Source: Thraustochytrium sp. TN22
Taxonomy: Eukaryota; Sar; Bigyra; Thraustochytrida; Thraustochytriidae
DNA: 64,000 bases
Assembly (NCBI GenBank): GCA_013306675.1
Contig: JABLUY010000103.1
Location: 55,195 to 119,194, forward strand
Direction of reading: 5' to 3'
Position numbers and translations under genes: made by a program. Position 1 is the first letter of the stretch. Every line of letters begins with the position of its first letter. Under the pieces are notes generated by a model. The model had not been told where the DNA came from and ran no database searches. It saw only the letters and a list, made by a program, of their open reading frames with translations. Below are positions 8,933 through 31,165 of the stretch, piece by piece.

Positions 8933-10607
8933 CTCTCGCGCCGCTGCGGAGACCGACCTCGCAGACCGCAGACCCGCGTCCAGCGCCACGTGCAGCACGT
9001 CCTCGACCACCCGTCCGTCCGTCCGCCCGCCCGCCCGCCCGCGCGCGCCCGCCCGCGCGCGCCGCCGTCTGCGCCCGAACTCCGGGCCGCGAGCCTCCTT
9101 GAACCTGCTCTGCCGTTGATGCTCCGGCTGCTCGGCCACTGACAGGGCCACTAGAACCGGCACTGGCAGTCTGGCAACGCAAAGATACCCCGCGCTGGTA
9201 GCGAGAGTCGTACATTGCCCAGAATTAACGTTACGGCCCGGGCGGCCGATGCAGGTCCGTGCTGGCTCCGTCGCTCGCCTTGGCTCCCCAGACCGCATAG
9301 CAGTAACCAACGCGCGTGCGCGACACCCTGTCCACCGCCCAGCTCCTCTCACGACCTTCGTCAGGGCATGCCGAAAGACAGGGCTGCAAGCTGGGATCAC
9401 GGGCGCAGACCAACCAACAAGGAAAACTCACTGTGCCAGCGCGGCGCGGCAGGCGTACGCGGCCAAGCGACAAGCGGTGGAAGACTTCTGCAGAAGCGAG
9501 TGGCTCGGAGCAGCAACGAAGAAGACACCGTTCAAAGGATGCATTGCAAGCAAGTAAAGCAAGCTTAGTTTTTACCGATGACAGGGCGCTGCCAATGTCA
9601 TTGGCTCAACGCTGATTCACTACCTTCCGATCTTGCTCATGAGTGCCCACATATCATGCCAGATGCGTGGCAGTACCAGAGCACCAACTCGAGTACTTCC
9701 AAATACAATGCAGGACCCAGACGGAAACTTGGGAGCCTCTCTGGCGGTCGCCGCGCCTGTGTGCAAGAGCCAATTTGTCCACGATCGCAGCCAGTGCCGC
9801 AACGTGCACGACCATCTCGCTCAGCACTTTAAAAGCTCCGCAGGCCAAGCTCACCGCCACCGCAGCACAGCACGTGGCCAAAGCGCGTTGGCGGAGGAAT
9901 CAATGGTTCTGGTAAACACTCCTGCAGGAGTCCGTGACTCATTGCTACAGGCGTGGTCTGACACACGCGAGCCTGGGAGTGTCCCCGCGGCGGCTCACAC
10001 CTTTTATGATTTCTACATTTTTTTCAATCAATCACCCACAAGGTTTAGGATACGCCTCCATTCATCATGGATTGGTCTCTGAACATGTGCGCATCGACAC
10101 GCGCAGACAGCTTGTGAATTGCGAGCCTTGCGCCATTTTCCTGACAAATTCCCCCCCCCACCGACTGCCGCCGTTGTACGCCACATCCGAAAAAAAAAAA
10201 GAAAAGAGGACGATCTCGAAAAAAGACAAGCGTCTCAAACAAAAACAACATCGCACAGTCGATTCGTGCTCTAGCTACTAGCTAGCGAGAGGTGAAAGCT
10301 GAACTCAGCGCACGCCGACTTGCGTGGCGACAGAGCTCCCCATAATGCATCACTGCCTGCACGGACACAGAACGAGGCTTCGTCCTCAACAATTTGACAT
10401 GAGCTTGTGTGCTAAACTCGCGCGCAGCCTTCCGAATCGACAGCCTCCGACGAAGTTGGCGGGCATGGAGTCTCCACGCTTTCGGCGAGGCCAAAATAAG
10501 CTGACTGTGAAATCCACTCATTTCGGGCTTGGTGGTATCAAAAGGCTCGCTTCACCTCTCCCTCGACATTCTCATAAGGCGCTTGTCCCTACGATGCGGG
10601 GCTTGTC
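8933..10607. other. Intergenic region without a recognisable gene
   Basis: About 1.7 kb holds no frame with a recognisable domain. The first 300 bases are the likely promoter of the zinc-finger gene and contain the near-palindromic CACTGGCAGT (9161-9170). The region turns AT-richer toward 10000-10280, with an A-run near 10190. At 10268-10288 there is a CTAGCTACTAGCTAGC cluster, a word that recurs in other gaps of this window. Confidence 0.45.
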
Positions 10608-12091
10608 GTGGTGAAGCGCGTGCTGTGTGAGCAGGTGCTGGGTGGTTGCCGAACGGTGGCTCTGGTGAAGCCGACAGGCTGGCGGTGCTACGTCGCCATC
10701 GATGACAACAGCGGCGACCCGAAATGCGCAGCGGAAGTGCGCACCGCGCTCTCGACCACGGCGGTCCAGGTGGAGTACATGCAGCGGCCTGTGCCGCTCG
10801 GTGGCTCAGGGTGTACGTGGATCCGCTGGAGCGCGAGAGCGAGCGCTTCCTGCCGTACGAGACGGTGAGCAAGATGGCGACCGGCTACGGGCGGTCGCGG
10901 CGCGACGCGGACGCCATGTTGGATACTTCCACAACCTCGGCGTCGTGGTGCACCTGCGCTCGTCCGAGACAATGGCCCGCGTGGTGGTGATCGACTCGCA
11001 GTGGCTGCTGGACAAGCTAGCCCGTGTCATCGCAGACTGGATTCACACGCGCAAGGACCAGGGGCGGGACTCGGACGTTCAGGGCGCAGCGTACTACGGC
11101 GATGCGGCGCACGGCGATCGCGCCGGGGTCGCTCCCGACCTAGCTCTGGAAGGTCCAGGTGGTGGCCTACCTGATTAAGTTCATGAAGGCCAACCTGCTG
11201 CTGAACCCATGGCGCTTCGGCGCCGCGCCCGCCGCCGACCCGCAGGACCTGGTGTCGGGCCTGGTCTCGCTGCTGCCTATGCCGGGCAAGAGCCCGTTTG
11301 CCAAGTTGAAGCATGGCCCGACGTGCGAGCTGGACGTCTCGGCGTTCTTCCTGCCAAACGGCGTCGTTGACCGCCTCGTGGCACAGCGCGCCAAGTACGC
11401 ATCGCGCGAGGACGTGGTGGCGTACGGGAGTGACACGAAGCCACCCAAGGTGGCTGCCACCGCCGCCAAGGTATTCGTCGCCTGGACAGCTTCCTGCTCG
11501 AGGTGGATGGCGACATGATTCGCGTCACGGTGCGCAAGAGTGCTGATGAGCCGGTCATCAAGCTGCTCGTGCCCATGTTCCGCAAGCAGCGCGACGCCAT
11601 CTTTCCCGGCCTGGACTGGAAGCTCACGCTGCGTAGTCCCGAGACACGCGTGAGTGTCGCATGTGAAGCGATCGAGGAGGCGCGCTATCTTCGTGTTGCG
11701 AACGATGACGACGTCGTTGAGATAGCGGACTTTGCGCCCTTTTTCGACGACCGCGTCGGCAAGCTCACCACTAATGAGGACGGCGCCGAGGTCCCGCTCT
11801 ACGGGCCCGACGAGCCATGTCTTCTTCAGCCACGGCGAGAGCACCGGCCTCACGTTGGCCGCCTTGCTCAACGAGAAGCTCGTCAAGCGCGGTTTGGCCG
11901 TCAGGTTCTTCCAGACCTGTCGTGGCAAGCTCAACGCGCAGGCCATGAAGAACGGTGTCGATCACTGCCGTCCCTACGTGCTCGTGCTGACGGCGGGCGT
12001 CTTGGAGAGCGCAATGGTACAGATGGAGCTTCGCGAGGCGCTCGCCCACAAGAAGCCCATCATCCAGGTCCATGAGTCCCGGACGGATTGA
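10608..12091 (+). pseudogene. Decayed COR-TIR copy of the downstream ROCO gene
   Basis: The stretch matches the 16.67-18.2 kb part of the downstream ROCO-TIR gene piece by piece, but in several reading frames. It opens inside the Roc domain (VALVKPTGWRC), continues through the COR domain (WRFGAAPAADPQ, VIDSQWLLDKLARVIADW) and ends after the TIR domain (LLNEKLVKRG, LVLTAGVLES, KPIIQVHES). Frame changes fall near 10805, 10915, 11060-11160, 11480 and 11815. The leucine-rich repeats and the GTP-binding P-loop are absent upstream. It therefore looks like a 5'-truncated duplicate that has stopped being maintained. The TIR part is still open over about 90 codons, so a short TIR-only product cannot be fully excluded. 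Confidence 0.85.
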
Positions 12092-13135: not shown

Positions 13136-16100
13136 ATGCCGGACTACTACAGCGCTGCCGAGGCCGTGCAGGCCATCAAGAACGGCGAGACCGAGGTCAA
13201 GTACGTCTTGTGCGAAGGCGCGCCTGCGGCTGTTGGTCTGCCTGCCTGCCCGTCTGCCCGCCTGCCTGCCTGCCTGCCTGGCTGTCTGCGCGGGCTCGCG
13301 GGCGCGGCAGGCGGGCGGGCAGGCGCGGCGCGGCGAGGCGAGGCCAGGCGAGGCGAGGCTTGCGAGGCCCCGGCGCGGCGAGGCGAGGCCGGCAGGCGCG
13401 GCGCGGAGAGGCGGCGCGCGCGCGCAGGCGGGCGCGGCGCGCAGGCGGCGAGGCCGGCCTGGCCGCGCGCGCGCGCGGACCGGCGGGCCCGCCCGGGGAG
13501 GCGGGCGACACGACGACTGACCGCGCCGCGACCCCTTGTGCTTGCGAAACCAGGATCGGCTTGCTGCGCAGTGCGAACCTCAAGAAGGCGGGCGCGCTCG
13601 AGGTGGCCGGCGCGCTCGAGGGCAACACGAGGCTCCAGCAGCTGGGGTGAGTTGCGGCGCGCGCGCGAGGCGACGGCGGCGAGCGGGTCCGCGCGGCGGG
13701 CGGGCCTGTGCTGACTGCTGCGGCACGGCCCGCCCGGCGCAGGCCGGACGCGGGCGGCCTGCGGCGGGGCGCGGGCCGCCGCCGGCGCGGGCTGCGCGGC
13801 CGCCGGCGCGGTGGCGGGGCGAGCAGACTGACTGACGGAGCCGCGGCCGCCTCGCTCTCGCTCTCGCTCGCGACCAACAGGATCTGTAACGACGACATCG
13901 GCGATGACGGGACGCGCGCGCTCACCGCGGCGCTCAAGGGCCACCCGACGCTCTCGAGCTTCTGGTGCGTCCGCCAAGCGCGCTCGCCAGCCGGTCTGCC
14001 CTCGGACGGCGGCGGAAGTCGATTTCTTGCATCACTGATTGCTGACCGGCGGCGCGCCAAGGCGTCGCAGGCTGATTGGCTGCAAGATAGGCCAAGAGGG
14101 TCTGCGCGCCGTCCTGGCGCTGCTCAAGACCAACCCCGCACTGGCGACGCTTGAGTAGGTGCTTGAGGCGACGCCGAGTCACCAGCAAGACGGCCTGCTG
14201 GCTGGCAGTGGACTGACGGACGATGGATCGGCGCGCGTCGTGCCCGGCCGCTTTCGAACGCGCAGCGTCGGCGGAAACAACCTGGGTCTCGCGGGCGCGC
14301 GCGCCGCGGCGGCGGCGCTCGACGGCTGCAAGACGCTGCAGAAGCTGTGGTGCGTGAGGACGCGGGCCGGCGCGGCGGCGGCGCGGGCTCTGGCGCCGCG
14401 GCCGCCGCGGCGGGCGGCGCAAGGGAGGATGGAACCCGGCTCGGCCACCCGGCTAACCTGCTCAACGCGCGCTTCACAGGTTCTTTCAGAACGGCATCGG
14501 CGACGCAGGCGCGCGCGCTTTCGCGGAGGCGCTGCCGCGGAACAGGTCACTCACGTCCTTGTCGTAAGTAGCCTAGATCGTGCCGTGCCGTCGTTACCGC
14601 GCGTGGCTGGCCCGGCATGGCAGGGGCCTGGCAGGCCTCGCCTGGCTTTTCGCTCGCCGGGGCAAGCTTGCCTGGCGGGCGGGCGCAGGTCGGCCAGAGT
14701 CTCTTGCCGGGCGCTCAGGTCGCCGGCCGGGCTGGCAGCTAGAGGAAAAGGGGCTCCCGCGCTCTCGCTTTCTTGTGGAGAACCGGAACCGAGGGAGCAA
14801 GGGAAGATGGAGGAAAGAGCGCCGGTTGACGGAGGACTGACTCGTTGGCTGCCTGACCTTTCTGCTCGCGCCCGTTCGACGTCACAGTCTTTTTGACGAC
14901 GGCATCGGCAACGAGGGCGCGGCGGCGCTGGCCGGGGCTCTGAAGACCAATAGGACGCTCACGAAGATCAATAGGACGCTCACGGAGCTCGAGTACGTGT
15001 TCCTTGCCACGCATTTGCGCGCGCGCGCGCACAAAGGCACAGAGGCGGGCAGAGCCAGGCCAAAAATTAAAGGTGAGAAGAGCGCCCCTGTCAATGGCCT
15101 GCCAAGATGCCTGTGCCTGTGCTTGCGGAGAGCNNCGGGGCGGGCGCGGGTCGGCCAGAGTCTGTAGCCGGGCGCTCAGGCCGCCGGCCGGGCTGGCAGC
15201 CAGAGGGAAATGGGCTCCCGCGTTCTCGCTTTCTTGTGGAGAACCGGATTCGAGGGAGAAGGAAGGAGCGCCGGTGGACGGAGGACTGACTCGTGGGCTG
15301 CCTGACCTTTCTGCTCGCGTCCGTCTGACTTCACAGTCTTTCGAGCAACGGCATCGGCAACGAGGGCGCGGCGGCGCTGGCCGGGGCTCTGGAGACCAAC
15401 CGGACGCTCACGGAGCTCAAGTACGTGTTCCTTGCCGCGCATGTGTGCGCGCGCGAGCACAGAGGCACGGAGCCAGGCGGAGGCAGGCCAGAAAATAAGA
15501 GCGCCCCTGTCAATGGCCTGCCAAGATGCTTGTGCCTGTGCTTGCGCAGCTAAATCGGGACCTTCATCATTCGAACGAGTCTCGCCCTCGCGTACCGTCA
15601 CACATGCGCGCGCCTGGCATTTGCTTTATTTTCATATCAACAGCAGGGCTAACTCAGCGAGCTTCCATGACGCAGCCTCGATTACAACGACAACATCACA
15701 AACTCTGCAATCAAGTCGCAGATCCGGGCCGCGCTCCAGCGCAACAAGGACAACCCTGGTCCTGGTCCGGATGTTTTTGCGCACATGTCGACCTGGAACG
15801 CGATGCTGGCCATGGTGCTGGGCGATGGCGGCGCGCTGGCGCCGTGGCGGCGGTGCAAGATCATGTTCGTGGGCCGCGGCCGCGCGGGCAAGACGTCGCT
15901 GGTGGACTCGATGACGGCGCAAGAGTTCAACCCGCAGCACGACTCGACCGAGTTGGCGGACGTGCACCGCGTGCACGCGCGCGACTGGGCGAAGCAGGCG
16001 TCGGACGGCGGCGAGTTCGTCCTGCACGCGTGCAGGACGGCGGTGGGGCTCGAGCAGCGCGAGCAGGCGGCGGCGTCCGAGGGCGCGGCGGCGGCGGCTC

Positions 16101-18419
16101 GGCCGCCGAGCCTGCCGCAGCGCGCGGTGGCCGCGGTGGCCGCGGTGCGCAACTCGCTGAAGCGGCTTTCACGAGTTGTGCCCTAGTGGTGGCGCACCGA
16201 GGCATAAGAGCCTTGCAAGCTGGCCCCCGCGTGGCGATGCGCGTTGCCATCTTTTTCTGTGGCCAGACTTTGTCGTGGTTCTTTTTCGTATGCGCGGCGC
16301 AAGGAAGGGCGCTGGCAGGCAGCGTTGAGCTCGCTTGGGCGCGGGCTGGCGAGTTTGAATGTCAAAGATGCAGTGTTGGGAGCGAAATCGAGCTAGGCAG
16401 TGCGTACGACTTGTGGCTGGGTTGTGCCCTAGTGGTGGCGCACCGAGGCATAAGAGCCTTGCAAGCTGGCCCCCGCGTGGCGATGCGCGTTGCCATCTTT
16501 TTCTGTGGCCAGACTTGGCTCCCCCGGCCACGCGCGCCAAGGCCGTCGAGTACCTGCGCTTCTGGCTCAACAGCATCGCGCTGCACGCGCAGGGCGCGCC
16601 GGTGCTCCTGGTGGGCACCTTTCTGGACCAGGTGGACGAGGCGGGCCTGGACCTGGTGGACGACGTGCTGCGCGAGCGCGTCCTGGGCACGTGCAGGTCG
16701 GTGGCGCTGGTGAAGCCGACAGGGTGGCGCTGCTTCTTCGCGGTCGACAACAGCAGCGGCGACCCGAACCGCGCGGCGGACGTGTGTGCCGCGCTCTCGT
16801 CAACGGCGGCCAAGCAGGAGTACGTGCAGAGGCCCGTGCCGCTGACGTGGCTCAAGGTGTACGCGGACCTGCTGGAGCGCGAGAGCGAGCGCTTTCTGCC
16901 GTACGAGACGGTCATCAAGATGGCGACCGACTATGGGCGGTCGCGGCGCGACGCGGACGCCATGCTGCGGTACTTCCACGGCCTCGGCGTCGTGGTGCAC
17001 CTGCGCTCGTCCGAGACGCTGGCCCGCGTGGTGGTGATCGACCCGCAGTGGCTGCTGGACAAGCTGGCGCGTGTCATCGCAGACTGGGTCCACGCGCGCA
17101 ATGTGTACGACCCGGATCTGGAGGAGGACGCCGCGTTCGACGCGATGCGGCGCACGGCGATCGCGCCGCGGTCGCTGCTGATCTCGCTCTGGAATTACCC
17201 GGAGGTGGCCTACCTGATTGAGTTCATGGAGGCCAACATGCTGCTGAGCCCGTGGCGCTTCGGCGCCGCGCCCGCCGCCGACCCGCAGTACCTGGTGTCG
17301 GGCCTGGTTTCGCTGTTGCCGACGCCGGACAAGAGCCCGTTCGCCAGGTTCAAGCGCGGCCTCACGTGCGAGCTGGACTTCTCAGCGTTCTTCCTGCCAA
17401 ACGGCGTCTTTCACCGCCTCGTGGCGCAGTGCGCCGAGTACGCGTCGCGCGAGGACGCGGCGGTCGACGACGACGTCAACGACGACAACGACTCCCGCGC
17501 GCCCATGCTGGATGCCACGACCGCCAAGGTCTTCCTTGGCCTGGACAGCTTCCTGCTCGAGGCGGACGGCGACGTGATCCGCATCACGGTGTGCGCCACG
17601 GCCGACCACCCGGCGCGCGTCATCAAGCTGCTCGTGTCCATGATCCGCAAGCAGCGCGAGACCCTCTTTCGTGACCTATACTACCGCCTCCTCCTGCGCA
17701 GTCCGGAGACCACGGTCGCGGCGTCCTACGAGGCCGTGGAGGCGGCCCGCGCCAAGGGCGTCGCCACGATCCGGGCCGCCAAAAGGAACGAGGTGGACGA
17801 CGTCGTCCGTGTGGCGGACTTTGCGCCCTTCTTCGACAGTCGCGTCGGCAGCCTCATCACCAACGAGGACGGCACGGACGTCCCCGTGTACGAGGTGCCG
17901 GACCTGGCGCCGGGGCAGACGAGCCACGTCTTCCTCAGCCACCGCGAGGAGTCTGGCCTTGCGTTGGCCGCCTTGCTCAACGAGAAGCTCGTCAAGCGCG
18001 GCCTCACCGTCTGGTTCTCCCAGACGTATCGTGGCAAGCTCAACGCGCAGGCCATGAAGGATGGCGTCAAACACTGCGGCGCCTATGTGCTTGTGCTGAC
18101 GGCGGGCGTCTTCGAGAGCGACGTGGTGAAGATGGAGCTGCGCGAGGCGCTGGCCCACAGGAAGCCCATCATCCCGGTACACGAGTCCCAGATCGACCTC
18201 CTCACCTACGCCGACTTTGGCCACTACATCGAGACCACGCCTGACTTTTGCAAGGGCCTCTTCACCGGGGAGCAGTCTCTGCCGGTGCGTCACATGTGGT
18301 ATGAGGAGGAGCCTTTTCTTCGCGAGCTCATCCGCCGTTGCCTTTTGGCCAGCATGCTCGCTCTTAGCTCCGTGAACGCCGTGACACAATTTCGTTTTGT
18401 TGCCTTACATTCAATTTAG
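13136..18419 (+). CDS. LRR-Roc-COR-TIR (ROCO family) receptor-like protein, Roc region interrupted
   Basis: Exons on the plus strand: 13136-13200, 13554-13646, 13881-13964, 14071-14154, 14266-14349, 14480-14563, 14888-14992, 15337-15420, 15676 to about 16170, and about 16515 to 18419. The first eight introns are all phase 2 with GT-AG ends. Exons 2-8 each carry one leucine-rich repeat of the NxIGxxGAxALAxAL type. Exon 9 has a P-loop (GRGRAGKTS). Later come LRRK-like VLLVGTFLDQV, a COR domain, and a C-terminal TIR domain (SHVFLSHRE, LVLTAGVFES, KMELREAL; the Glu at 18135-18137 aligns with the catalytic Glu of NAD-cleaving TIRs). The reading frame meets a stop at 16184 inside Roc, and the stretch that should carry the DxxG switch motif is missing around a repeated segment at 16175-16516. 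I cannot find a clean splice across it. The gene may be newly broken, misassembled, or spliced in an unusual way. The architecture suggests an intracellular immune or cell-death receptor, which is inference. Confidence 0.75.
14681..15549 (+). repeat. Tandem duplication carrying an LRR exon and its flanking introns
   Basis: Two units, about 14681-15133 and about 15143-15549, are nearly the same from the upstream intron (CGGCCAGAGTCT) through the LRR exon (IGNEGAAALAGAL in both) into the downstream intron (GCGCCCCTGTCAATGGCC). The two exons differ by a 21-nt internal duplication in the first. The junction holds the two N bases at 15135-15136. Confidence 0.85.
16175..16516 (+). repeat. 96-bp identical direct repeat, period 246, inside the Roc-encoding region
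   Basis: Bases 16175-16270 recur without a mismatch at 16421-16516, so the block is a 246-bp unit present 1.4 times. Each copy ends in a polypyrimidine stretch plus CCAG that looks like a splice acceptor. The block lies where the central part of the Roc GTPase should be encoded. Confidence 0.95.
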
Positions 18420-28675: not shown

Positions 28676-30454
28676 TCAGGCCGACGAAAGAAAACCCTCG
28701 CCCGAGTCCAGACCAGCATCGTGGTCTGGTCGAGACAGGTAGCGCACCAGCTCGATCAGAGCCAAGGTATCCTTGGCACAGTATCGAACCAAATCCTCGC
28801 GGAGGGCAGCCAGCTCCGACTCGGTCGTGTCAGGACGCTGCGCGAGGAACCATGCAAGCTGTGCATCCTGGCCGTTCGCCACAGCGCTCCCATCGTCGTA
28901 TGCAAAGCTCGAGTTCGGGATGCCCTTGACGATGGCCTTGAGCGAGAAGGAGCCCATCTGCTGCGGCGCATAATAACCGTCCCTGCACAGCTTGAGCGTG
29001 TCCACCATGCGCGCCTCCAGCGCGCGCAGACCCGGCACCAGAGCCTCACAGCTCGGGTGCTTCATGAGCGTGCGCAGCACCGAGCGCTCCGCGGCGATGG
29101 AATGGACCAAAACAGGCCCGCTCGTACCCACCGCCGCGAGCAGCGACCGCGCGAACGCCTCGTGCAAGCCTGGATCCGCGGCGAACGAGAGGAAGGAGAG
29201 CCCGTCCTCGAGACGCGGTTCCTCCTCCGGGCTCGACCACACGTGCACGGACCACTGGAACGGCAGCGCGTCGCGCGGGGTCGAGCCATCGAGCAGCGGC
29301 ACAATCTGCTGCACCGTCTCAAAGTCCATGCTGTAGCGCGGCCACGCCAGACCGCGCACGAATTTTGCCGCCTGCTCGCTGCGCCACGGTCGCTCCTCGC
29401 CGTGTGCGCGCCAGATGCGCTCGTGCAAGGGCGTCTTGAGGTCCGCGGCGTGTAGCTCGCGCAGGTCGTACACGCCGTGCACCGCCCACGCCTCGCTCAT
29501 CTCACGGCCCGTGCGCGGCAGGATGCGGATCGGCACCTCCGCGCCGCGGTCCGCCTCCTGCTCGCACAGCGGCTTGAACTCGCACGGGAAGTTTCGCGTG
29601 CACTGGGACCCCATGACCACCTCCGGTGCATCCGTCTCCGGCCTGAGCAACTCTCTCAGCTCCTCTACCGCGGTCTCGATCAGCGCCCGCCGCTCCGCCG
29701 AGACCTCGCACTCGCTCAGCGTCAGCAGGCCCTCGTATCGCTCGCGCGTCGTCTGCGGCGGCATCGTCGCCGCCGGCAACTGGAAGTTCTTGTTGATGCT
29801 CGCCACCATCGCGCGTGCCACCGCCACACCGCCGTCCTGCTCGGCCACCCACCGCTGGAACTCCACGTCCACAAAGTGGTCCTCGCGGAGCGTCGACGAC
29901 GACTTCACCTCGATCATGTCCCACTCGTGCACAAGTGCGTCCGGACCAGGCGGCGCCTCTGCCGCTGCGAGCGAGCTGGTCTCGGCCGCCGCCGCCGCCG
30001 CCGCCGCCGGTTCTGTGATTGCTTCCTCGGCCGAGCCCGCCCCCTCCTCCTTCTTCTTGCTCTTTTGGCCCTTGGCCGTCTTCTTCGCGTTGAGATCCCC
30101 TGGTTTTACGATCTTGCTCTGCACCTGCTCCTGCATCCATGCGCCGCGGCGTCGCTGCATCACGTCCACGCGCACGTAGCAGCCCTGCGCCATGAAGGCG
30201 GCCTCGTACACGCGGTCCACGCTCGGGTCGCTCAGCGCCTCGTAGGTGGCGGCCACGGCCAGCTCGGGGTTCCGCACCTCCGTCAGGTCCACGCCCGGCC
30301 CAAAGTACCTCGGCACGAAGGCCGACAGCCGCTCGCCCACGCCCAGCAGGAAGCCGCTGCGCGCCGTCGCCAACTCGCCCGCGTGCGCCTGCAGCCATCC
30401 GCGCTTGCGGCACCGCAGTGTGCTCATCGCCAGCGTCTTGGTGATGCGCCGCAT
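28676..30454 (-). CDS. DUF2779-type nuclease: Cas4-like Fe-S PD-(D/E)XK plus DEDDy exonuclease-like domain
   Basis: 592 residues run from the ATG at 30454. The frame is open to an ATG at 30742, which would add a hydrophobic, Arg-rich leader. The start at 30454 falls exactly where the conserved family begins (ITKTLAMSTLRCRKRGWL). A Cas4-like nuclease is suggested by that first Cys, the Asp of VRVDVM, the E-x-K of WDMIEVKSS, and three late cysteines spaced C-x5-C-x5-C (TRNFPCEFKPLC), a pattern that holds a 4Fe-4S cluster in Cas4/AddB-like nucleases. The C-terminal DUF2779 part has YSMDFETVQ (D-x-E), then ALPFQWSVHVW, MVDTLKL and RYCAKDTLA (Y-x3-D), fitting a DEDDy exonuclease. I know the family mainly from bacteria, so horizontal gain is likely. 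A Lys/Ala-rich insert separates the first nuclease motifs. Confidence 0.8.
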   Translation of the reverse strand: MRRITKTLAMSTLRCRKRGWLQAHAGELATARSGFLLGVGERLSAFVPRYFGPGVDLTEVRNPELAVAATYEALSDPSVDRVYEAAFMAQGCYVRVDVMQRRRGAWMQEQVQSKIVKPGDLNAKKTAKGQKSKKKEEGAGSAEEAITEPAAAAAAAAETSSLAAAEAPPGPDALVHEWDMIEVKSSSTLREDHFVDVEFQRWVAEQDGGVAVARAMVASINKNFQLPAATMPPQTTRERYEGLLTLSECEVSAERRALIETAVEELRELLRPETDAPEVVMGSQCTRNFPCEFKPLCEQEADRGAEVPIRILPRTGREMSEAWAVHGVYDLRELHAADLKTPLHERIWRAHGEERPWRSEQAAKFVRGLAWPRYSMDFETVQQIVPLLDGSTPRDALPFQWSVHVWSSPEEEPRLEDGLSFLSFAADPGLHEAFARSLLAAVGTSGPVLVHSIAAERSVLRTLMKHPSCEALVPGLRALEARMVDTLKLCRDGYYAPQQMGSFSLKAIVKGIPNSSFAYDDGSAVANGQDAQLAWFLAQRPDTTESELAALREDLVRYCAKDTLALIELVRYLSRPDHDAGLDSGEGFLSSA

Positions 30455-31165
30455 CGCGCCCGCGCTCGCGCCGCCGCGCGGCCCTCCGTCGGGCGCGGCC
30501 GCCTTGCTCGCTTGGCTCAGTTTTGCTGGTCCTGCGCCTGCGCGTGCTCCCCAGCCAAGCCCAGGAGTCAGAGCCAAGACCAGGACAGCGGCCAAAGCCC
30601 GAGCCAATCGCCTAGCGTCGCGGCGAGCGCCAACTTCGCCCTTGGCGCGAGGCACCGCGCGCGTCTCCGCTGTCTCACATCGAGCCACGCAACGATCGAT
30701 TCCACTGGTCGACGACGCTGCAGTTGATTGATGCCAACACAAGAAAACCCTGAGTCAATCAATCTCGAGCCAAAGCAAGCTCGGGACAGAGGCGAAGCCA
30801 GCCACGATGACATCAGAAGCTCGCGCTCGACCTCCAGCCCTGCACCATGGCATGACACGGTGGATGCAGTGATGAAGTGCCGGCGGTGCAATGATTGCAA
30901 TAATACAGTGCCAGTGCCGCATGTCCTCGTCGTCAGTATCGACCATGATCGCCATGTCGGGCCGGGCTCACTGGCAAGAAGGCGCACACAGAGGGCGGCG
31001 CGATCCTGCCCTGGCCGCCAGACTCGGAGCCTTGGACTGGCAGTCCGAGTCCGACGACGCTCCGCAGCAGCAGCGGCAGCAGCAGCGGCAGCAGAAGCGA
31101 TCGATCGCGAGGAGCCGCAGCCGGAGCAGGAGTGCAGCAAGGGCGAGCGAGGCGGGCGAGGCAAG
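30455..31165. promoter_or_regulatory. Divergent promoter region of nuclease and dehydrogenase genes
   Basis: About 700 bases lie between the two proximal starts, or 420 if the longer nuclease start at 30742 is used. It contains CAGTGCCAGTGC at about 30906-30917 and the near-palindrome GGACTGGCAGTCC at 31034-31046, both of the CACTGGCA/TGCCAGTG type. A CAG/CGG run lies at about 31065-31095. Confidence 0.45.

Follow-up and report, generated by a model that had tools for sequence, protein, structure and literature searches.

The window analysed in this study is a stretch of 64,000 nucleotides (C4:55195-119194) from the genome of Thraustochytrium sp. TN22 (37.9 Mb, 453 contigs). Our subject is a locus at positions 13136 to 18419 of it, which had been predicted from its letters to encode one protein with leucine-rich repeats (LRRs), a Roc GTPase domain, a COR domain and a C-terminal TIR domain. 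We favour, with moderate confidence, the reading that a damaged copy stands here from a large family of thraustochytrid LRR-Roc-COR-TIR proteins, whose intact members would resemble nucleotide-binding LRR receptors (NLRs) and would use a ROCO GTPase as their switch. Profile matches across the genome indicate that the layout is genuine and widespread.

A ROCO-TIR family in the genome

COR-A matches number 46 in the genome, 42 of them over the Pfam cut-off with the window copy included, and 34 of these 42 loci carry a TIR_2 match downstream in the same open frame, at a distance of 535 to 1003 nt; these family counts should be read as minima, as stated by the search tool itself and because a number of copies run into the end of a contig. 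TIR_2 itself matches 123 times at E up to 0.001. For the pairing of the two domains, every one of the 46 COR-A rows was compared with 110 TIR_2 rows out of 123; the 13 left out (four tandem copies on C160 and nine others), besides one zero-score placeholder, lie by our reading in no case on the contig, strand and open frame of a COR-A row. The sensor-GTPase-TIR layout of the original prediction thus holds at 34 loci, while the window copy lacks the middle of its GTPase.

Ten long family frames, chosen by hand as were the paralog pairs and tree rows described below, were scanned with Pfam. All ten have Roc and COR-A in tandem over cut-off, and eight have Roc, COR-A and TIR_2 all over cut-off. 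Locus L027 combines LRR_6 (E 3.8e-28), Roc and COR-A over cut-off in one frame, with TIR_2 at 24.9 bits, under its cut-off of 28, and locus L030 has no TIR match. Pfam COR-B was not detected in the ten frames, and neither NB-ARC nor NACHT matched in them at E up to 0.01, the switch being Roc. When the family was compared with bacterial Rocos by profile alignment (hhalign), G3, COR-A and most of COR-B aligned with 99.8% probability and 20% identity. The best solved-structure matches of the family Roc-COR were LRRK2 (E 3.8e-15), then 4wnr and 3dpu, which we take to be prokaryotic Rocos. Genome-wide, NB-ARC has 2 matches and NACHT 8 (7 over cut-off) against the 46 of COR-A, which makes ROCO the most frequent switch of the three in this genome.

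Two further observations concern the architecture of the family. In 11 aligned members, the Roc domain (for example residues about 143-250 of L016) carries a variable Arg/Ser/Ala-rich insert from the switch I region to G3, several tens of residues long and longer than the corresponding stretch of bacterial Rocos. At C160:1120-4789, four head-to-tail units 1043 bp apart encode a COR end plus TIR, which may be explained by amplification of the effector end in tandem or else by a repeat in the assembly.

Structure of the window copy

The features of the locus and of a neighbouring relic are as follows, all on the + strand.

13136..13200, +: exon 1 by conceptual splicing, with a likely start codon (MPDYYSAAEAVQ...) and donor GTACGT, intron phase 2
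13554..13646, +: LRR exon, 93 nt, phase 2 at both ends (splicing, LRR_6 profile)
13881..13964, +: LRR exon, 84 nt, phase 2 (exon scan, splicing)
14071..14154, +: LRR exon, 84 nt, phase 2 (exon scan, splicing)
14266..14349, +: LRR exon, 84 nt, phase 2 (exon scan, splicing)
14480..14563, +: LRR exon, 84 nt, phase 2 (exon scan, splicing)
14677..15549, +: tandem duplication of an LRR exon and its flanking introns (repeat families D4, D7, D9 and D18, 419-461 bp apart, 85-96% identical)
14888..14992, +: LRR exon, 105 nt, phase 2, with an apparent internal 21-nt duplication by reading (splicing)
15337..15420, +: LRR exon, 84 nt, phase 2, tandem duplicate with the preceding LRR exon (exon scan, splicing, repeat families)
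15676..16171, +: exon that holds the final LRR-like repeat and Roc's first half, with the P-loop GRGRAGKT at 15872-15895
16172..16520, +: interruption of 349 bp replacing 82-95 Roc residues (G3/switch II) (repeats, tblastn gap)
16521..18419, +: open frame with the end of Roc, COR and TIR (Pfam, direct reading)
16602-16634, +: LRRK-like G4 motif VLLVGTFLDQV (read from the sequence)
16839..17084, +: COR-A match, over cut-off (Pfam, E 1.7e-12)
17928..18188, +: TIR_2 match, over cut-off (Pfam, E 1.1e-10)
18135-18137, +: predicted catalytic Glu codon GAG (read from the sequence)
10590..12088, +: decayed COR-TIR paralog with stops in the aligned frames, which shares 77-92% identity with stretches of 16636-18192

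Joined conceptually, the nine upstream exons (13136-13200 to 15676 onward) have GT-AG borders and give 393 residues with no stop, and all eight introns between them are in phase 2. After splicing, the protein gives E 1.2e-23 for LRR_6 and 26.3 bits for the first third of Pfam Roc, slightly under the cut-off of 27; by itself and unspliced, the open reading frame (ORF) 15785-16183 matches Roc positions 1-43 of 119 at 28.7 bits, over that cut-off. In this conceptual splicing, exons 1-9 join the LRRs to Roc in frame. An exact length of 84 nt is shared by five of the seven LRR exons.

Downstream, COR-A and TIR_2 share one frame of 686 amino acids (16359-18419) with its own ATG, and the COR-A score ranks 4th of the 46 in the genome. 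For the TIR region, AlphaFold was given the window sequence together with 30 bacterial tails, and the resulting model alternates strands and helices with a mean predicted local distance difference test score (pLDDT) of 61.5 and a predicted template modelling score of 0.54. In the Foldseek search of the PDB, every entry of ranks 1-19 (E 1.7e-4 to 1.1e-3) is a TIR domain or a protein with one, SPARTA and TIR-STING entries being counted as TIR-bearing by our own reading. These ranks include SARM1 at 22% identity; from rank 20 on, other folds appear with E-values that hardly differ. The TIR fold of the C-terminus is thus supported by a model of moderate confidence. Part by part, the original prediction was borne out by these results: the LRRs, the GTP-binding P-loop, the LRRK-like motif, the COR domain and a C-terminal TIR domain with its glutamate codon were all found within 13136-18419.

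The claim that was not confirmed is that of one continuous protein, which is broken by a stop and a repeat at 16172-16520. The P-loop frame meets its stop inside this interval, in which two identical (100%) 96-bp copies (16175-16270 and 16421-16516) stand around a 150-bp stretch. Of 30 genome matches to the interval, one is the window itself, one corresponds to the part between the repeats and 28 to the repeat, a dispersed element of about 95 bp that occurs singly or grouped. In tblastn searches, intact paralogs align with the window up to 16141-16171 and resume at 16512-16533, skipping 82-95 of their residues (198-292 in L016, 215-296 in L017, 218-305 in L014). The WDYGGQ/switch II segment of the paralogs was not found anywhere in the window when nine paralog G3 segments were searched; among the best 25 matches, the last 13-21 residues of seven of the nine segments aligned at 16512-16577 and the rest had E 0.085 or weaker. 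The window Roc is therefore incomplete in its G1-G5 set, with P-loop and G4 present and G3/switch II absent. From what is established for Ras-like GTPases, the loss of G3 and switch II should prevent a Roc from hydrolysing GTP normally. Since a dispersed repeat replaces the 82-95 residues that include these elements, the window copy is probably dead, a pseudogene as judged from its sequence.

TIR domains of the family

All 27 TIRs that were aligned have the predicted catalytic glutamate. They comprise 22 loci of the family, three other TIR proteins and the two copies in the window, and some of them are near-identical; the count omits seven of the 32 extracted-frame loci, where the TIR start pattern was unmatched. 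The three other proteins are L041-L043, in whose available stretch no COR was found. Against the PDB, the family TIR profile had as its top matches the bacterial TIRs 7uwg, 3h16, 8g83 (the NAD(+) hydrolase AbTIR) and 7uxr, then SARM1. The family glutamate column aligns with the glutamate of 7uwg, presumably the catalytic residue, and the family TIRs may by this likeness be NADases. PADLOC, run on the protist proteins, gave a best E of 2.7e-6, and the matched models were TIR- or SEFIR-bearing, with one unnamed candidate.

Among the TIR_2 proteins outside the family, L041 and L043 have SH3_15 (Mind-bomb SH3-like) matches and an architecture unlike ROCO-TIR; L041 also has a ZZ zinc finger, and L043 a C1_2 match under cut-off.

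Exon design, selection and exchange of TIR blocks

The exon scan, which covered the window and loci L001-L056, returned 96 rows, 29 of which were exactly 84 nt long and in phase 2, corresponding to 22 distinct exons once overlaps were removed by hand. One LRR per exon, phase 2 and exon duplication, the marks of the brown-algal type, were thus found in the family; L027 is an exception, with its repeats in a single frame. Across the 22 exons, the most variable of the 27 LRR positions are 2, 3, 5, 25 and 26 (2.9-3.5 bits), and the framework is nearly fixed. The usual LRR pattern places the concave strand, and by our reading these variable positions flank or lie on its predicted course.

The ratio of nonsynonymous to synonymous substitution rates (dN/dS) was 0.24-0.64 in all eight hand-chosen paralog pairs. 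In a five-copy alignment, five successive windows of 150 columns, from G4 into COR (residues 328-568 of C99), show the copy on C288 as 100% identical to those on C11 and C99. From residue 768, where TIR starts, the C288 copy is 71-80% identical to C11 and C99 but 97-99% to C158. The closest relative switches at the start of TIR, and therefore the effector end was exchanged: the paralogs are mosaics that swap TIR blocks.

Relation to bacterial Rocos

The original prediction held that ROCO proteins usually end in a kinase or have no effector. This generalisation fails for bacteria: among 74 bacterial Roco tails, 30 match TIR_2 and 9 match CHAT, the tails being those of at least 80 amino acids among the best 80 of 513 confirmed bacterial Roco loci, so that 30 of 74 is no census. 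Published bacterial proteins speak against it as well (PMC8195603), and a TPR-ROCO-TIR protein is reported in the red alga Chondrus crispus (PMC11378527). A hidden Markov model built from 25 extracted protist TIRs likewise matched 30 of the 74 tails at E below 0.001.

Searches of plasmids with tblastn returned eight bacterial Rocos at 23-27% identity. When contigs were scanned with the family alignment, no bacterial relative was found (17 pattern matches, none confirmed), and the viral scan gave 16 pattern matches, none confirmed; absence in these scans is weak evidence because they rest on two short patterns. In a tree from G3 to COR, whose comparison set was bacterial rows only (20 family rows against 21), the family forms one side of a branch with 100/100 support, and the stems are long (2.14 and 2.52 changes per column), 19 rows having unusual composition. 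The family was not placed within the bacterial proteins of this tree, and therefore a recent transfer from bacteria, which we had considered, is not supported.

Two plasmids of Nostoc carry Rocos of their own. On pNsp_j (L061:784-5391) there is an LRR-Roc-COR-CHAT protein, a Roco with a caspase-like effector domain. On pn3 (L058:1192-4680), a Roc-COR protein annotated as SAV_2336 N-terminal domain-related is encoded directly downstream of a MoxR family ATPase gene.

Proposed mechanism and alternative explanations

Domain order, copy number, exon design, the retained glutamate, dN/dS below 1 between paralogs and mosaic TIR exchange were observed, and by analogy with known receptors the family may have an immune or cell-death role. 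In the mechanism that we propose, the ROCO GTPase would be the switch, in place of an ATPase of the STAND (signal transduction ATPases with numerous domains) class. LRRs from duplicated single-repeat exons would bind an invader-derived or danger ligand, this binding would alter the nucleotide state or dimer state of Roc-COR, and the change would gather the C-terminal TIR domains, which would then consume NAD+ or make a nucleotide signal leading to cell death or defence. Ligand binding, GTP gating, NADase activity and the immune purpose are presumed. As sequenced, the window copy cannot act in this way because its Roc core is missing. A broader reading, which we put forward only tentatively, is that several dozen ROCO-gated TIR NADases form a diversifying immune repertoire of NLR type in a stramenopile that is free-living and single-celled. 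LRR-exon duplication would renew ligand ranges and paralog recombination would renew effector ends, and as the output an infected cell would kill itself, which would benefit the other members of its clone.

Several points weigh against the proposed mechanism, besides the loci omitted from the glutamate count. The window copy is itself broken, and the AlphaFold model of COR and TIR together is too poor for use (mean pLDDT 48.5). Eight of the 42 COR-A loci over cut-off have no in-frame TIR_2 match; at least three of them (L020, L021, L024) have a degenerate TIR by alignment, and L026 runs off its contig end. The P-loop of L038 also matches AAA_22 over cut-off. Clade A TIRs are without the usual W-C ahead of the glutamate, and the subgroup L020-L025 has a shortened BB-loop region and has lost W-x-D, so that by sequence its TIRs may be inactive. 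LRR positions 19 and 9 are nearly as variable (2.87 and 2.77) as the five named above and exposed LRR positions commonly vary, so that this variability alone is not proof of ligand selection. Finally, the mechanism is drawn from sequence, and its expression, biochemistry and infection aspects are presumed.

A rather doubtful alternative, although the one that survives best, is that the family is real and its TIR is a non-enzymatic assembly module in non-immune signalling, such as stress, prey or partner recognition, or development. It would fit the subgroup without the W-x-D/BB-loop stretch, the members without a TIR_2 match, and the action of Dictyostelium ROCO proteins in chemotaxis and cell division (PMC4104024). 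The glutamate kept in all 27 aligned TIRs and the NAD+ hydrolases among the best profile matches speak against a non-enzymatic TIR, and copy number and TIR exchange resemble conflict genes.

The two remaining alternatives concern the window copy and appear to us improbable, to a similar degree. In one, the copy is alive: the repeat-bearing stretch became a promoter or first exon, and the 686-amino-acid COR-TIR ORF is a stand-alone protein. Its frame is indeed intact from its own ATG, and COR-A and TIR_2 are well kept, COR-A with its high rank in the genome; yet the ATG (16359) falls within the repeat-bearing interruption, the GTPase core is gone and the upstream LRR exons would be left without a product. 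In the other, the Roc segment is missing through faulty assembly at the repeat, and the true gene is whole. The perfect identity of the two 96-bp repeats, the paralogs that break off at contig ends and two Ns in the window at about 15134 speak for such an error, but the repeat matches 28 other places, as expected of a dispersed element, both sides are contiguous in one contig, and the neighbour at 10590-12088 is decayed as well.

A chance ORF was ruled out by Pfam, the paralogs and dN/dS, and LRR and TIR as separate genes is countered by COR and TIR in frame at 34 loci and by L027, with LRR, Roc, COR and a weak TIR in one frame.

If the damaged-member reading and the proposed mechanism hold, a unicellular marine protist has formed a receptor family of NLR size around a Ras-like GTPase in place of a STAND ATPase, and this family would connect the LRR-Roc-COR-TIR conflict proteins of bacteria to the proposed brown-algal LRR-ROCO receptors. 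The family would also be an example from nature of a TIR that may be under the control of a ROCO GTPase, and so be relevant to signal transmission by Roc-COR, the core of LRRK2. Thraustochytrids are cultured, transformable and hosts of known viruses, and therefore the question of ROCO immune receptors outside animals would become testable.

Host genome and neighbouring features

The protist host that had been predicted is supported by a PfaA-type polyunsaturated fatty acid (PUFA) synthase on C124, a single frame of 3044 amino acids (2539.7 bits against a cut-off of 1010.1), which points to a thraustochytrid. Its neighbour is divergent, with 2083 amino acids and weaker PfaA-like matches, and we take this pair to be the usual thraustochytrid arrangement of PUFA synthase. 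Within the window, the relic at 10590-12088 has a TIR_2 match of 28.3 bits (cut-off 28) and is more decayed than the main copy. Outside the LRR-Roc-COR-TIR finding, an ORF of 688 amino acids at 28679-30742 on the - strand matches DUF2779 (E 1.3e-20).

Comparison with known systems

LRRK1 and LRRK2 share LRR-Roc-COR with the family and have no TIR; LRRK ends in a kinase and WD40. The plant TIR-NLRs RPV1, RUN1 and ROQ1 likewise combine an LRR sensor, a nucleotide switch and a TIR effector in one protein, and with the family TIR profile their TIRs score E 3.9e-7 to 8.2e-5. They differ in that their switch is NB-ARC, and in plants TIR is N-terminal and the LRRs C-terminal. Measured against the NLR/STAND class, the family has Roc instead of an NB-ARC or NACHT ATPase, and has sensor, switch and effector in one protein (L027, with TIR_2 under cut-off; LRR-Roc in window exons 1-9).

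Bacterial LRR-Roc-COR proteins (AP-GTPases) have at least 24 types of C-terminal domain, TIR included, were predicted in 2021 to be counter-invader systems, and occur as several paralogs per genome, for example 11 in Haliscomenobacter (PMC8195603). The order LRR, Roc, COR and C-terminal TIR is the same there as in the thraustochytrid family (PMC8195603). The thraustochytrid proteins differ by their long branch with 100/100 support, the undetected Pfam COR-B in ten frames, the variable Roc insert, and the position of most of the repeats found in separate exons.

Brown-algal LRR-ROCO candidate immune receptors were reportedly the subject of work by Zambounis et al. in 2012, as cited in PMC11378527. 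As described in 2024, these receptors have one LRR per 72-nt phase-2 exon and no TIR, LRR-ROC-COR being given as the sole arrangement in brown algae, and the other SAR species searched there, Schizochytrium aggregatum included, had at most four ROCO copies (PMC11378527). Stramenopile host, expansion, one LRR per exon and phase 2 are shared with our family, and the selected sites on the brown-algal concave face can be likened to the thraustochytrid variable positions (PMC11378527). The two differ in exon size, 72 nt against mostly 84 nt, and of the two only the thraustochytrid family has TIR.

Eukaryotic ROCO-TIR combinations, as in our family, are also present in Chondrus (PMC11378527), in Trichoplax, where a figure legend lists TIR among the domains of T. 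adherens Roc-COR proteins (PMC4104024), and in Aplysia, with a ROCO protein bearing TIR (PMC9334734). Their other partner domains are different (TPR, MBT, EF-hand), and no comparable expansion is reported in the available parts of these sources. An atlas of TIR domains notes uncharacterised eukaryotic TIR clades; its main text uses none of the words thraustochytrid, stramenopile and ROC (PMC13142454). In our literature search, some of whose listings were incomplete, no paper dealt with thraustochytrid ROCO-TIR families. In conclusion, the ROCO-TIR combination was already known; what is new is its scale and its exon design in a unicellular stramenopile.

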